64,000 nucleotides of DNA from Coffea arabica (Eukaryota; Streptophyta; Magnoliopsida; Gentianales; Rubiaceae), in contig NC_092329.1 in the NCBI RefSeq assembly GCF_036785885.1, positions 3,162,001-3,226,000 on the forward strand. The letters run 5' to 3'. The translations under genes were made by a program, and so were the position numbers. The notes beneath the pieces are model-generated. The model ran no database searches and was not told where the DNA came from. It saw nothing but the letters and a program-made list of their open reading frames with translations. This document shows positions 21,501-26,120 of this stretch, piece after piece; the stretch's first letter is position 1, and every line of letters begins with the position of its first letter.

Positions 21501-23785
21501 CAGCTATTTCATGTTTTGTTACATATCTTTCTTGATTGGATAATTTTTGTTGATTTATATCAACAGAAGCTTGGAGATATTATGGAGATGGCTTTTGGTG
21601 GTCGTTATGTTATTATGATGATGGCACTCTTCTCAATATACACAGGATTGATATATAATGAGTTTTTTTCTGTTCCTTTTGAACTTTTTGGACGTTCTGC
21701 TTATGACTGCCGAGATTCTTCATGCAGGTGTCCAATTGCTACCTTAACTTCTAGTCACACACCCCCACCTCGAAATTAAAAAGTAATAACTATTCGCACA
21801 ATCCTTTAACTCACTGTTCTTTTCAGGGATGCATCTACAGTGGGCTTGATTAAGGTGCGTGGCACCTATCCTTTTGGTGTTGATCCCAAATGGCATGGTA
21901 CACGCAGCGAGCTACCATTCCTCAACTCTTTGAAAATGAAAATGTCCATTTTACTTGGCATAGCACAGATGAATCTCGGAATAGTTTTAAGCTATTTCAA
22001 TGCAAAGTTCTTTGGGAACGATATAAATATCTGGTAAGTTTAGATTCCTGAATATGTGCTGCTGCTTGTATTGCATGTGTGTATTTCATTCACACCATGC
22101 AGTGCTCCAATTGTAAGTCTTTACAGATGCATCTGGGCTTTTAATTGCATGGTAGCACAATAGAGCTCGAATATTTGATGTTGTTGTCGTGATTGATAAA
22201 TATGTGCTTTATACCATAATATTGGCTCGTGTTTACATCCTTTTGCAGGTACCAGTTTGTTCCCCAGATTATTTTTTTAAACAGCCTGTTTGGCTACCTA
22301 TCACTTCTCATAATTGTGAAATGGTGCTCCGGTTCCCAAGCTGATCTCTATCATGTAATGATATACATGTTCTTGAGTCCTACTGCTGATTTAGGTGATA
22401 ATCACCTATTTTTTGGCCAGAAATATCTCCAGGTTTTACTTTTATTTTGACGAATAAGTTCTTGGGACCAGTTCAGGTAGAGAAGAACTCTGACTCATTT
22501 CATATATTCCATTCTACACTATCCTCAGATTCTTTTGCTATTGCTTGCGCTTGTTGCTGTTCCATGGATGTTATTTCCAAAGCCCCTTCTTTTGAAGAAG
22601 CAGCACCAGGAAGTATGTTCTGAATTAATTGCATCGCCTCTGTTAAGTTGGTAGTTTTTACTCTGTTGTCTTCCTGTCTTGATATCTATTTACTTCCATA
22701 TCATGCTTTCTCAGAGACACCGAGGACAAGCCTACAGACCTCTTTATAGCACTGAGGACTCCTTTGAACTCGAGATACAAAGTGATTTACATGGTCATGA
22801 GGAGTTTGAGTTCAGTGAAGTTTTTGTCCATCAAGTAATCCATACAATAGAGTTTGTTCTTGGAGCAGTCTCTAACACAGCTTCTTATCTACGTTTGTGG
22901 GCACTTAGGTACATATCTGAAGCTGTTGAAAATTTTATTTTAATTAAAATACATAAGTCACTTGCTTCTGGAGAATCTCTTCTTTTTCCAGTATGACATT
23001 TGATGTAGATTATGAAGTATTTTGGAAAACTCAAATTCGGTGGGAAGTTGTTCTTTGCCCAAGCATGAATGAAGAAACAATGTTTGCAAATCCCTAACAA
23101 ATGAATGAGCTCCCTGTTGTATTCACCCTGGCTTTTTTTTTTTAAAGGTAGTTTTGTGTTCTTAATAATCTTAGAACCATGACAAGGAAAGTATGAGAAA
23201 CTTTTAGGCTGTTTGCAGATCCCAATTATCCTTTTTCTTTAAACCTATGCCGAATTCTATTTCCTTAAGTTGGATGTTGACATGTTGTCTTGAAATCATA
23301 ACTGGACTACTCAGGAATCATTGATAAATGCAATTCTACTCTGATCATATTCATTCAATCTACTTTATGCTGATCTAGTACCACATAATGATTGGAGCAT
23401 TGTTGGTTTTGCAGTCTTGCACATTCAGAACTTTCCAGTGTGTTTTATGATAAAGTTCTGCTTCTTGCTTGGGGGTAAGGATCTCCGTGATTTTTTTTTT
23501 TTTTTTAAAAAAAAGCTCCTAAAAATCTTGTAGAATCTGTTTTATGACTCACGTGAGGTTCATTGTGATCATGGCGTCAGGTTCAACAACGTCATTATCC
23601 TCATCATTGGGATTATTGTGTTTATATGTGCTACTGTTGGTGTATTACTGCTGATGGAAACCCTGAGTGCATTTCTCCATGCCCTGAGGCTTCACTGGGT
23701 AGAATTTCAGGGCAAGTTTTACGAGGGAGATGGTTACAAGTTTTATCCATTCTCATTTGCATCACTCAGCGAGGATGAGGAATGA
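15591..23785 (+). CDS. VHA-a3: V-type proton ATPase subunit a (VHA-a3-like, tonoplast)
   Basis: Eighteen exons assemble in phase into 813 residues: 15591-15719, 16412-16456, 17986-18108, 18295-18402, 18534-18644, 18759-18932, 19375-19512, 19642-19749, 19869-19976, 20085-20233, 20755-20908, 21567-21727, 21827-22033, 22249-22432, 22529-22612, 22715-22908, 23415-23474, 23581-23785. Subunit a is the membrane stator of the Vo sector and carries the proton half-channels. The N-terminal half is cytosolic ([31 protein letters not shown]); the C-terminal half is membrane-spanning. The channel arginine is present in [15 protein letters not shown], across the exon 16/17 joint, and a second conserved arginine lies in [11 protein letters not shown]. 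The words VKLGELE, AGEFF and the ending [19 protein letters not shown] resemble the vacuolar a2/a3 forms more than the Golgi form a1. Length is near the usual 815-820. Confidence 0.96.
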
Positions 23786-23994
23786 TAGGAGCAGTTTTTT
23801 TAACATGACTGAGTTTTAGATGATTCATTTGTGAGTAGACAGATATTAGAAGTCCCAGAGGAATTGCTGAAAATTTTCGGAGATTCAATTCTCTAAAGCA
23901 CGCCCTTCCGGGTCAATGTAGTAGTAATTGTTTTATGGTGAATCCCGCAGGCTAGCGGTCATATTAGGTCTATCCGTGGAAATTGTTACTAAAT
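23786..23994 (+). other. 3' flank of the V-ATPase gene, ending in the Pack-MULE target site
   Basis: This is short non-coding DNA, presumably 3' UTR. I see no canonical AATAAA. Its last nine bases, TTACTAAAT (23986-23994), are the left copy of the Mutator-element target duplication, so the transposon sits in or just beyond the UTR. Confidence 0.5.
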
Positions 23995-25152
23995 GGGCAA
24001 AGAGTTCCGGTGGCCCTCAAATTATTAGCCGGATGAACTTTTGGCCCCCAAACAATTAAAAGTAAACTTTTGGCCCCCGATCTATCTAAAGTACAAAATG
24101 TTAGACCTTCTGTCAAATTCAGCAGTTAATACAGACGGAATCTACGAACACGTGAGACCCGAAATACAAAGGGCATACGAAATGGTGATTCTGGGGTGCT
24201 CTTCTGAAGCGGACGCAAAAAAAGGGCATTGGGTTGAAGGACTATTTGAGGGTCGTACAGCCCTTGGAAGCCGAGGCTAGGGAGTGTTACTTTGAAAATA
24301 CAGGGTACAGCAGTGATGAATTCATAGAGATGTTGGTTCTTGACAGTTGTTTCATTCTGGAAATCTTTCGAAAGTTTGGAGGGTTGGTGCCGGTCGATCC
24401 AGATGATCCGCTTACCTCGATGTTGATCCAGATGTCGTGGGTGTATGCTTACCCCGATGACGAAGGATCAGGGCCGTCTTTGGGCCGATTGACTCTAAAT
24501 TTCTTCAACAATGCACTGCAAAGGTTTGAGCTAGTTTTGGCCAGATACAGCAGCCTCGAACTCGAACGCAAGCATTTGCTGGACTTTCTTTGCGAAAGCT
24601 TCAACCCCCTGGAACACGGCGAACCTAAACCCGATGGGTTTCTGAACACTCGCGTAATCGAATGCGTCTCGCATCTCTCGTACGCTGGAATTGACCTTAA
24701 ACCCAGCGAGGAAGAGAGCTTCTTGGCCATAAAATTCAGGCACGGGGGGTAATCGAGATGCCCAGAATTGCTTTGGATGATTTCATGAGCTCGTTTCTAT
24801 TGAATTGTGTCGCCTACGAGCAATGTCAGGCGGGTTGTTCCAAACACATGACGACTTGTGCTACATTCTTGGATTGCCTGATAAATTTGTCCAAGGACGT
24901 CCAATTTCTATGCGATTGGAACATAATCGAGAACTATTTTGGGACAGATGCTGAAATTGCCAAAAATGCCCTTCGTATTTCGGTGTGCTTCTCACGTAGT
25001 CGTAGATTCCGTCGGTATTAACTGCTGAATTTGACAAAAGGTCTAACATTTTGTACTTTGGATAGATCGGGGGCCAAAAATTTACTTTTAATTGTTTGGG
25101 GGCCAAAAGTTCATCCGGCTAATAGTTTGAGGGCCATCGGGACTTTTTGCCC
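23995..25152. mobile_element. Pack-MULE (Mutator-like element carrying a DUF247 fragment)
   Basis: Terminal inverted repeats lie at 23995-24176 and 24966-25152. They begin GGGCAAAGAGTTCCGG and GGGCAAAAAGTCCCGA and by hand count differ by about 11 substitutions and one 5-base gap. The nine bases TTACTAAAT flank the element exactly on both sides (23986-23994 and 25153-25161); a 9-bp duplication with long inverted ends is the signature of Mutator-like transposition. The roughly 790-base interior holds no transposase. It holds a piece of a DUF247 gene running almost from one inverted repeat to the other, which is the defining arrangement of a Pack-MULE. The preserved ends and duplication suggest a fairly recent insertion. 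Confidence 0.92.
24196..24965 (+). pseudogene. Captured DUF247 gene fragment, frameshifted
   Basis: The reading frame near 24235-24750 contains the DUF247 signature LEAEARECYFE, SSDEFIEMLVLDSCFILEIFRK, then HLLDFLCESFNP, VIECVSHLSYAGIDLK and SFLAIKFRHGG. It stops with TAA at 24750-24752. The next frame continues the same family without a break in homology (VIEMPRIALDDFMSSF, NCVAYEQC, CLINLSKDVQFLCDWNIIENYFGTDAEIA). One missing base in the six-G run at about 24743-24748 explains the switch. The usual N-terminus and C-terminal membrane helix are absent. The block of the DLLLLENQLPFF type expected after SWVY is missing too, replaced by a short acidic linker. DUF247 proteins are plant-specific and of largely unknown biochemistry; members act in grass self-incompatibility. 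There is no ATG at the front of the frame, so this is probably not a working gene. Confidence 0.85.
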
Positions 25153-25320
25153 TTACTAAATTGATACTCATGATGCTATGAAAGGTATAACCACGATTTA
25201 TGGCCCCTAGGATTAAGTTGTCCTGACACCCGTCATTCGCTGTTTTGTGAATGAAAGTTCCATTTATTTATCTAAGAGAAGACTTTGCTGCGGTTAATTT
25301 CTAGGTAAATCCGTCTTTAA

Positions 25321-26120
25321 GGGTCCGTTTGTTTCGGGTGAAAATGTTTTCCAGGAAAATATTTTCCTAATTTCCCGTGTTTGGTTGCACAAAAGTTATT
25401 GAAAACATTTTCCTATGTAAAATATTTTCACTCATCTTATGGAAAACAACTTCCCTTCCAAACTTACTGAAGTTGTTTTCCGAAATGCATGCATCCCGCC
25501 TGTAGTATGTTCTAAACTTACTGAAAACATCTTGTAGTATGTTCTTTTTTTTTTTTTAGTGTAAACAGGAGGATTCGAACCCAAAATCTCTTTCTTACAC
25601 TCCCTCCCCCGTACCACCCAACCCTCCCCCTAGTATATTCAAAATAAAAAAAAAAACCTCATTCTGTTCATCCTATGCTAGTAATTAATTATATATAATA
25701 GAGACATTCTTTTCTAGAGAAACTTTCAGCAGTGAGAGTGCAAGATATATGTCACAATAAGCATTGCATGTGATTGATATTTGACACTAAATGACCAGCA
25801 ATTTGTTTATTGCTTAAGGAGATATATCTTTATTCATATATACATTTCTCCAAGATTTTTTAAAATTAAACAATAAGATAAATTTTTTTATTTTGCATGG
25901 GAAGAAGTATGTAGTTATAATGTGTAGAAAGTAAAGATAGAGATAAAAATAAAAATATTTCAAAAGTTAAACAAACACCAGAAAAATGAAGTAAGAAAAT
26001 ATTTTCAATAAGCTAACCAAACACCTGAAAAAGATGAAAGGGAAATGATTTTCATGGAAAATTACTTCCACGGAAAATATTTTCCCAAGGAAAACATTTT
26101 ACTTCCAACCAAACAGACCC
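25321..26120. mobile_element. PIF/Harbinger (Tourist-like) MITE with TAA duplication
   Basis: The ends GGGTCCGTTTG and CAAACAGACCC form inverted repeats, and TAA lies directly outside both (25318-25320 and 26121-26123). Three-base TAA/TTA duplications with a GGG..GTTTG end are typical of Tourist-like elements. Sub-terminal GAAAATATTTTCC words on the two sides also pair. The 800 bases contain no transposase; a SINE has inserted at 25545-25630. Confidence 0.8.
25545..25630 (-). mobile_element. Compact tRNA-derived SINE nested in the Harbinger MITE
   Basis: On the minus strand this reads an A-box-like GGTTGGGTGGTACGG, a perfect B box GGTTCGAATCC, about 15 more bases and an A tail. It is flanked by TAGTATGTTC (25535-25544) and TAGTATATTC (25631-25640), a 10-base target duplication with one mismatch, as retroposition would leave. 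Diverged relatives in the same orientation are at 31319-31410 and 37827-37920. Confidence 0.75.

Follow-up and report, generated by a model that had tools for sequence, protein, structure and literature searches.

The stretch of Coffea arabica DNA analysed here (the window; 64,000 nucleotides, C20:3162001-3226000 in our labelling) almost certainly contains a non-autonomous Mutator-like element (Pack-MULE), which carries a once-captured fragment of a DUF247 gene and moved to a site behind a V-ATPase gene. The element occupies positions 23995-25152 (1158 bp). Its structure is not a product of chance, since it recurs elsewhere in the assembly at 97.6-99.8% identity with other perfect 9-bp target site duplications (TSDs) and since the homologous site on contig C19 is empty. 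An element with GGGCAAA ends took up a DUF247 coding stretch between its two terminal inverted repeats (TIRs). A later net deletion of 69 bp, accompanied by locally copied filler, is shared by the copies on C9, C6, C4 and C20. The window copy landed 201 bp behind the gene for V-ATPase subunit a, duplicating TTACTAAAT, and only one of the two homologs carries it.

Structure, copies and empty sites

Comparison of the inverted repeats defines a left TIR of 182 nt (23995-24176, plus strand), starting with GGGCAAAG, and a right TIR of 187 nt (24966-25152, minus strand). They are 91.4% identical, with one 5-nt gap between them. Perfect 9-bp copies of TTACTAAAT flank the element at 23986-23994 and 25153-25161. 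The 3' end of the V-ATPase subunit a coding sequence lies on the same strand as the element (23642-23785, plus; PF01496 profile positions 777-815), and its stop codon (23783-23785) precedes the left TSD by 201 bp. A first-pass annotation had described the inverted ends, the duplication and the adjoining V-ATPase gene, all of which proved accurate. Each TIR also harbours an internal 29-nt tandem duplication (24036-24093 and 25054-25111) composed of AACTTTTGGCCCCC units that are 79-83% alike. The longest stop-to-stop frame in the element comprises 187 aa (24189-24752). No transposase was detected in the three plus-strand frames scanned, which yielded DUF247 or nothing (minus-strand frames, of at most 115 aa, were left out); a sub-threshold Arm_3 match was the sole extra match in these frames. 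PHROGs gave no match.

The whole assembly (1.198 Gb, 131 contigs) was searched; contigs in the result tables are labelled C1 to C22 and measure 40-77 Mb where size is shown. Search with the whole element returned at least 94 matches. Since 40 of 363 candidates were scored, TIR counts are lower bounds. The first-pass annotation had proposed to look for siblings with the terminal repeats and regarded a lack of other copies with these ends as an argument against its reading. Three full-length siblings of the C20 element were found, on C4 (99.8% identity to the window element), C6 (99.5%) and C9 (97.6%), along with a longer fifth copy of 1226 bp on C13. All five copies are delimited by perfect 9-bp TSDs, each of them different: TTACTAAAT, AATCTTTAA, ATAATTATA, TTTATTTTA and TTTCATGTA.

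Contig C19 matches window positions 22901-23994 and 25153-25324 without the element, and the flanks join at one TTACTAAAT. Similarly, the C4 site contains TTAAAGATT twice and its unoccupied C3 homolog a single TTAAAGATC, while the C13 site contains TACATGAAA twice and its unoccupied C14 homolog one copy. All three copies with an identified homologous site (C20, C4 and C13, out of five) are thus present on one homolog only. Because the C9 copy sits in a repeat, its check was limited to two paralogous copies of that repeat, both unoccupied and with only 79% match on one side. The left flank of the C6 copy is a dispersed repeat, and search with its right flank gave no homologous site. C19/C20, C3/C4 and C13/C14 are probably homologs of one plant. 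Since divergence is considerable in parts of the homologous flanks (identities of 91.3%-98.3%, with 91.6% right of the C4 site and 91.3% left of the C13 site), the paired contigs may be either phased haplotypes or homoeologs. The empty site, which had been suggested for comparison with related genomes, was in this way found between homologous chromosomes of one assembly.

Two further insertions were observed next to the copies. To the left of the C4 sibling, L031:1-643 is a dispersed repeat with at least 14 other near-complete copies (98-100% identity; 40 scored candidates); the C3 homolog lacks it, and it appears to be another recently active element. To the right of the window element, a second insertion, ~0.8 kb long (~25321-26120), is likewise missing from C19. 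It has imperfect inverted repeats of about 53 nt and ends GGGTCCGTTTG.../...CAGACCC, which we take to be hAT-like.

Given how many DUF247 members this genome has, a resident, immobile DUF247 pseudogene with a pair of MULEs around it by chance might in principle look like the window element. Such an arrangement has next to no probability: all 1158 bp are found again at unlinked loci, each copy with TSDs of its own, and precisely the segment between the two TSD copies is absent from C19. That copies occur at unlinked loci and that the homologous sites are empty (3 of 3) demonstrates mobility as a unit, and the siblings together with the empty site rule the bracketed pseudogene out. It is also conceivable that the V-ATPase subunit a gene has in this insertion a 3' element specific to one allele, acting on polyadenylation or stability, given that the Pack-MULE lies on the V-ATPase strand, 201 bp past the stop codon, and is missing from the C19 homolog. 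We regard this as unlikely. Some 170 bp beyond the Pack-MULE, the second insertion follows on this chromosome, and it is not on C19 either, so that any effects on the V-ATPase alleles would be confounded.

Origin and decay of the DUF247 cargo

Search of the assembly with the interior of the element retrieved the five copies, a locus on C11 and a locus on C12, and nothing else (all 7 candidates were scored). The C11 locus is a DUF247 gene whose open frame runs over 471 aa and matches the domain in full (E 6.6e-121); the open frame on C12 encodes 469 aa. No TIR match occurs in the 6.5 kb around either gene. The parental gene that the first-pass annotation had hoped to find with the interior was hereby obtained and, taken together with the siblings and the empty site, it bears out the view of a Pack-MULE with a captured host DUF247 fragment. 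The two genes differ in 10 of 756 compared columns (1.3%) and are presumably two homologs of one gene. Since interiors of the copies differ from them by 7.6-9.3% (756-column alignment without the scar zone), the actual donor, be it an allele or a paralog, may have been lost.

The captured DNA (24180-24964, plus strand, 785 bp; search identity with the C11/C12 gene 91-93%) corresponds to about 855 bp of coding sequence of this one gene. To place its junctions, the parent and the TIRs of 12 related elements served as references. At the left junction there is a 3-nt filler, ACG (24177-24179, plus strand), and the right junction falls inside a shared 4-nt microhomology, CAAA (24961-24964, plus strand). 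Both junctions cut the TIR at a nearly equal inner position, short of the ~226-nt TIRs of larger elements. Microhomology at one junction and filler at the other are consistent with acquisition by gap repair or template switch. Gap-filling and template-switch models are discussed in PMC8277862, which, in the portion relied on here, leaves their validity for plant Pack-MULEs open. Because the same two junctions are found in all five copies, the fragment was acquired once.

The Pfam DUF247 profile (PF03140) is matched in three pieces, 47-125, 166-262 and 256-344 (E-values 4.1e-15, 8.8e-7 and 1.1e-21, respectively). The first two are in one frame and the third in another. The earlier statement that the interior encodes the DUF247 signature almost from end to end needs qualification: the frame is broken and the captured DNA, confined to 24180-24964, falls slightly short of the full TIR-to-TIR span. 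Two lesions interrupt the reading, leaving the window copy without a continuous DUF247 coding frame. One is a scar at 24424-24452 (plus strand), in which 29 nt stand for 98 parental nt (net -69). It includes locally copied filler, recognisable as a 13-nt direct repeat within the element (24393-24405 / 24422-24434, plus strand), and is present in four of the five copies (C20, C4, C6 and C9), so that the C13 copy alone keeps the full form of the captured stretch. The other is a 1-nt frameshift in a G run (24744-24749, plus strand), one base short of the C11 parent; a TAA stop follows immediately (24750-24752, plus strand). This frameshift is common to all five copies, as are both capture junctions, and C9 and C13 carry additional 1-nt gaps. 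Differences from the C11 parent at codon positions 1/2/3 number 18/20/23 in C20, 19/21/19 in C9 and 23/22/25 in C13. Such an even spread is as expected without coding constraint, and the cargo probably lacks any protein function by itself.

The survival of a 187-aa stop-to-stop stretch (24189-24752) in the window copy could nevertheless reflect a small retained gene, or a transcript with a host role, for example by giving rise to small RNA directed at the DUF247 parent. Published accounts lend this some plausibility: 40% of Pack-MULEs are given as transcribed in the relevant part of PMC8277862, and PMC3310237, where it touches on the subject, treats Pack-MULEs as potential regulators of parental genes. 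A retained gene is still quite improbable, as the frameshift and the internal deletion are shared and further 1-nt gaps occur in C9 and C13, codon-position bias is absent, and the element is found on one homolog only at all three testable sites of the five copies. A decayed passenger fragment within a mobile Pack-MULE remains the preferred reading.

In the assembly as a whole, DUF247 gives at least 106 matches over the cut-off (103 of 194 candidates scored), a figure that includes both homologs as well as split pieces. DUF247 genes, many of them with open frames, are clustered on paired contigs (C5/C6 at 5.3-8.6 Mb, C15/C16 and C7/C8). Around the captured parent on C11/C12, no other DUF247 match lies within 1.9 Mb among the matches listed. 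The first-pass annotation had pointed to the link of DUF247 with self-incompatibility in grasses. Because the cargo is broken, this link finds no support here; the parent is one of the at least 106 matches. An oak study (PMC9018854) belongs, as far as its cited part goes, to the literature around DUF247, self-incompatibility and transposable elements, and our literature search found no work combining Pack-MULE and DUF247.

Transposase-bearing relatives

Twelve further TIR pairs (L037-L048) were picked from the matches of the whole-element search. TSDs are perfect in 10 of the 12, with a length of 9 or 10 bp (two are 10 bp; one of the 10 emerges after the end is shifted by 2 nt); the TSD of L043 agrees in 8 of 9 bases and L041 has none. 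TIRs of the window element are up to 94% identical to those of the larger elements over ~192-199 nt. The domain scan covered L037 (5640 bp) and L040 (5645 bp), both with 9-bp TSDs, and in both of them PF10551, PF03108 and PF04434 (MULE, DBD and SWIM, respectively) were detected between matching TIRs. The MULE and SWIM parts are in different frames, which may signify an intron or a break, and no complete transposase frame was seen. Several separate frames are present in each of six large elements. The autonomous partner that the annotation had proposed to look for was hence found only in part, as TIR-matched elements with transposase domains. These 5.6-kb relatives are the putative source of transposase in trans.

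Between the transposase and the right TIR, on the strand opposite to the transposase, L037 contains a 149-aa ORF with a GRF zinc finger (L037:5912-6361, minus strand; PF06839, E 3.7e-6). By tblastn the ORF is also found in L040 (1284-1733, plus strand), L039 and L041, and in interrupted form in L038 and L048. The protein is rich in lysine and glutamate over one stretch and has a hydrophobic segment at its C-terminus. Four of the six copies were compared (the interrupted L038 and L048 were left out, and in L039 a stop close to its end was skipped), and pN/pS is ~0.11-0.26 in 5 of 6 pairs. The sixth pair, L037-L040, is a close one whose value of 0.77 is based on four changes and carries no information. 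Purifying selection thus appears to act on the ORF among these copies. Its position is, we presume, the one at which maize MuDR carries mudrB. Tentatively, the GRF protein might be the product of a second gene, perhaps a transposition factor that also mobilises the Pack-MULE. No work joining the GRF zinc finger with Mutator elements was found in the literature searched.

Order of events and relation to known elements

To order the copies, distances and a tree were computed from 756 columns, the scar zone being left out. The window interior differs from C4 at 2/755 positions, from C6 at 5/755, from C9 at 19/754, from C13 at 33/754 and from C11 at 61/755, and C13 differs from C11 at 70/754. The tree, ((((C20,C4)97,C6)99,C9)72,C13)100 against the parents (HKY+G, 100 bootstraps), places C9 with 72% bootstrap only, and the shared scar backs the same grouping. 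C20 and C4 are 0.3% different, well below the divergence of the homologous chromosomes C20 and C19 around the window insertion (1.7% on the left; 4.7% and 2.5% in two right pieces). Together with the distance of about 8% between interior and parent, this points to a capture that is old relative to the spread and to a window insertion that is itself recent. The clean ends, read by the first-pass annotation as a sign of a recent event, date the insertion and not the capture.

The element is a clear but ordinary example of an already known kind and leaves ideas about Pack-MULEs and DUF247 unchanged. Its value lies in how unusually complete the natural history of this Pack-MULE is within a single assembly: a parent on both homologs, transposase-bearing relatives, a full-capture copy, a four-copy deletion form and one-homolog insertions are found together. 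The order of capture, decay and spread can be read from them. In addition, the insertion provides natural presence/absence alleles beside a V-ATPase gene, usable for expression comparison.

A close parallel is the tomato PM-ZIBP family, as portrayed in the sections of PMC3310237 used here. Both families are multicopy, occur in dicots, have 9-10-bp TSDs and an identified parental gene, and carry one gene fragment; in both, one distinct copy looks ancestral to an amplified derivative form. They differ in cargo (zinc-ion binding protein in PM-ZIBP, DUF247 here), in number of copies found (14 versus 5) and in the derived change, which is a gain of tandem TIRs in PM-ZIBP and a net loss of 69 bp of cargo in coffee. 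With Pack-MULEs of rice and maize and with Pack-TYPE elements, as outlined in PMC8903248, the element shares the nature of a non-autonomous TIR element, captured coding DNA and class-typical TSDs; rice Pack-MULEs are known by thousands in that outline, whereas a single family is described here. Larger relatives of the element are likened, in their features, to autonomous plant MULEs of the MUDR kind as characterised in the pertinent part of PMC6446971: they share a SWIM-finger transposase, long TIRs, 9-10-bp TSDs and, sometimes in the MUDR kind, a second antisense ORF. The antisense feature listed there as usual is a PMD motif, in contrast to the GRF zinc-finger ORF of the coffee elements.
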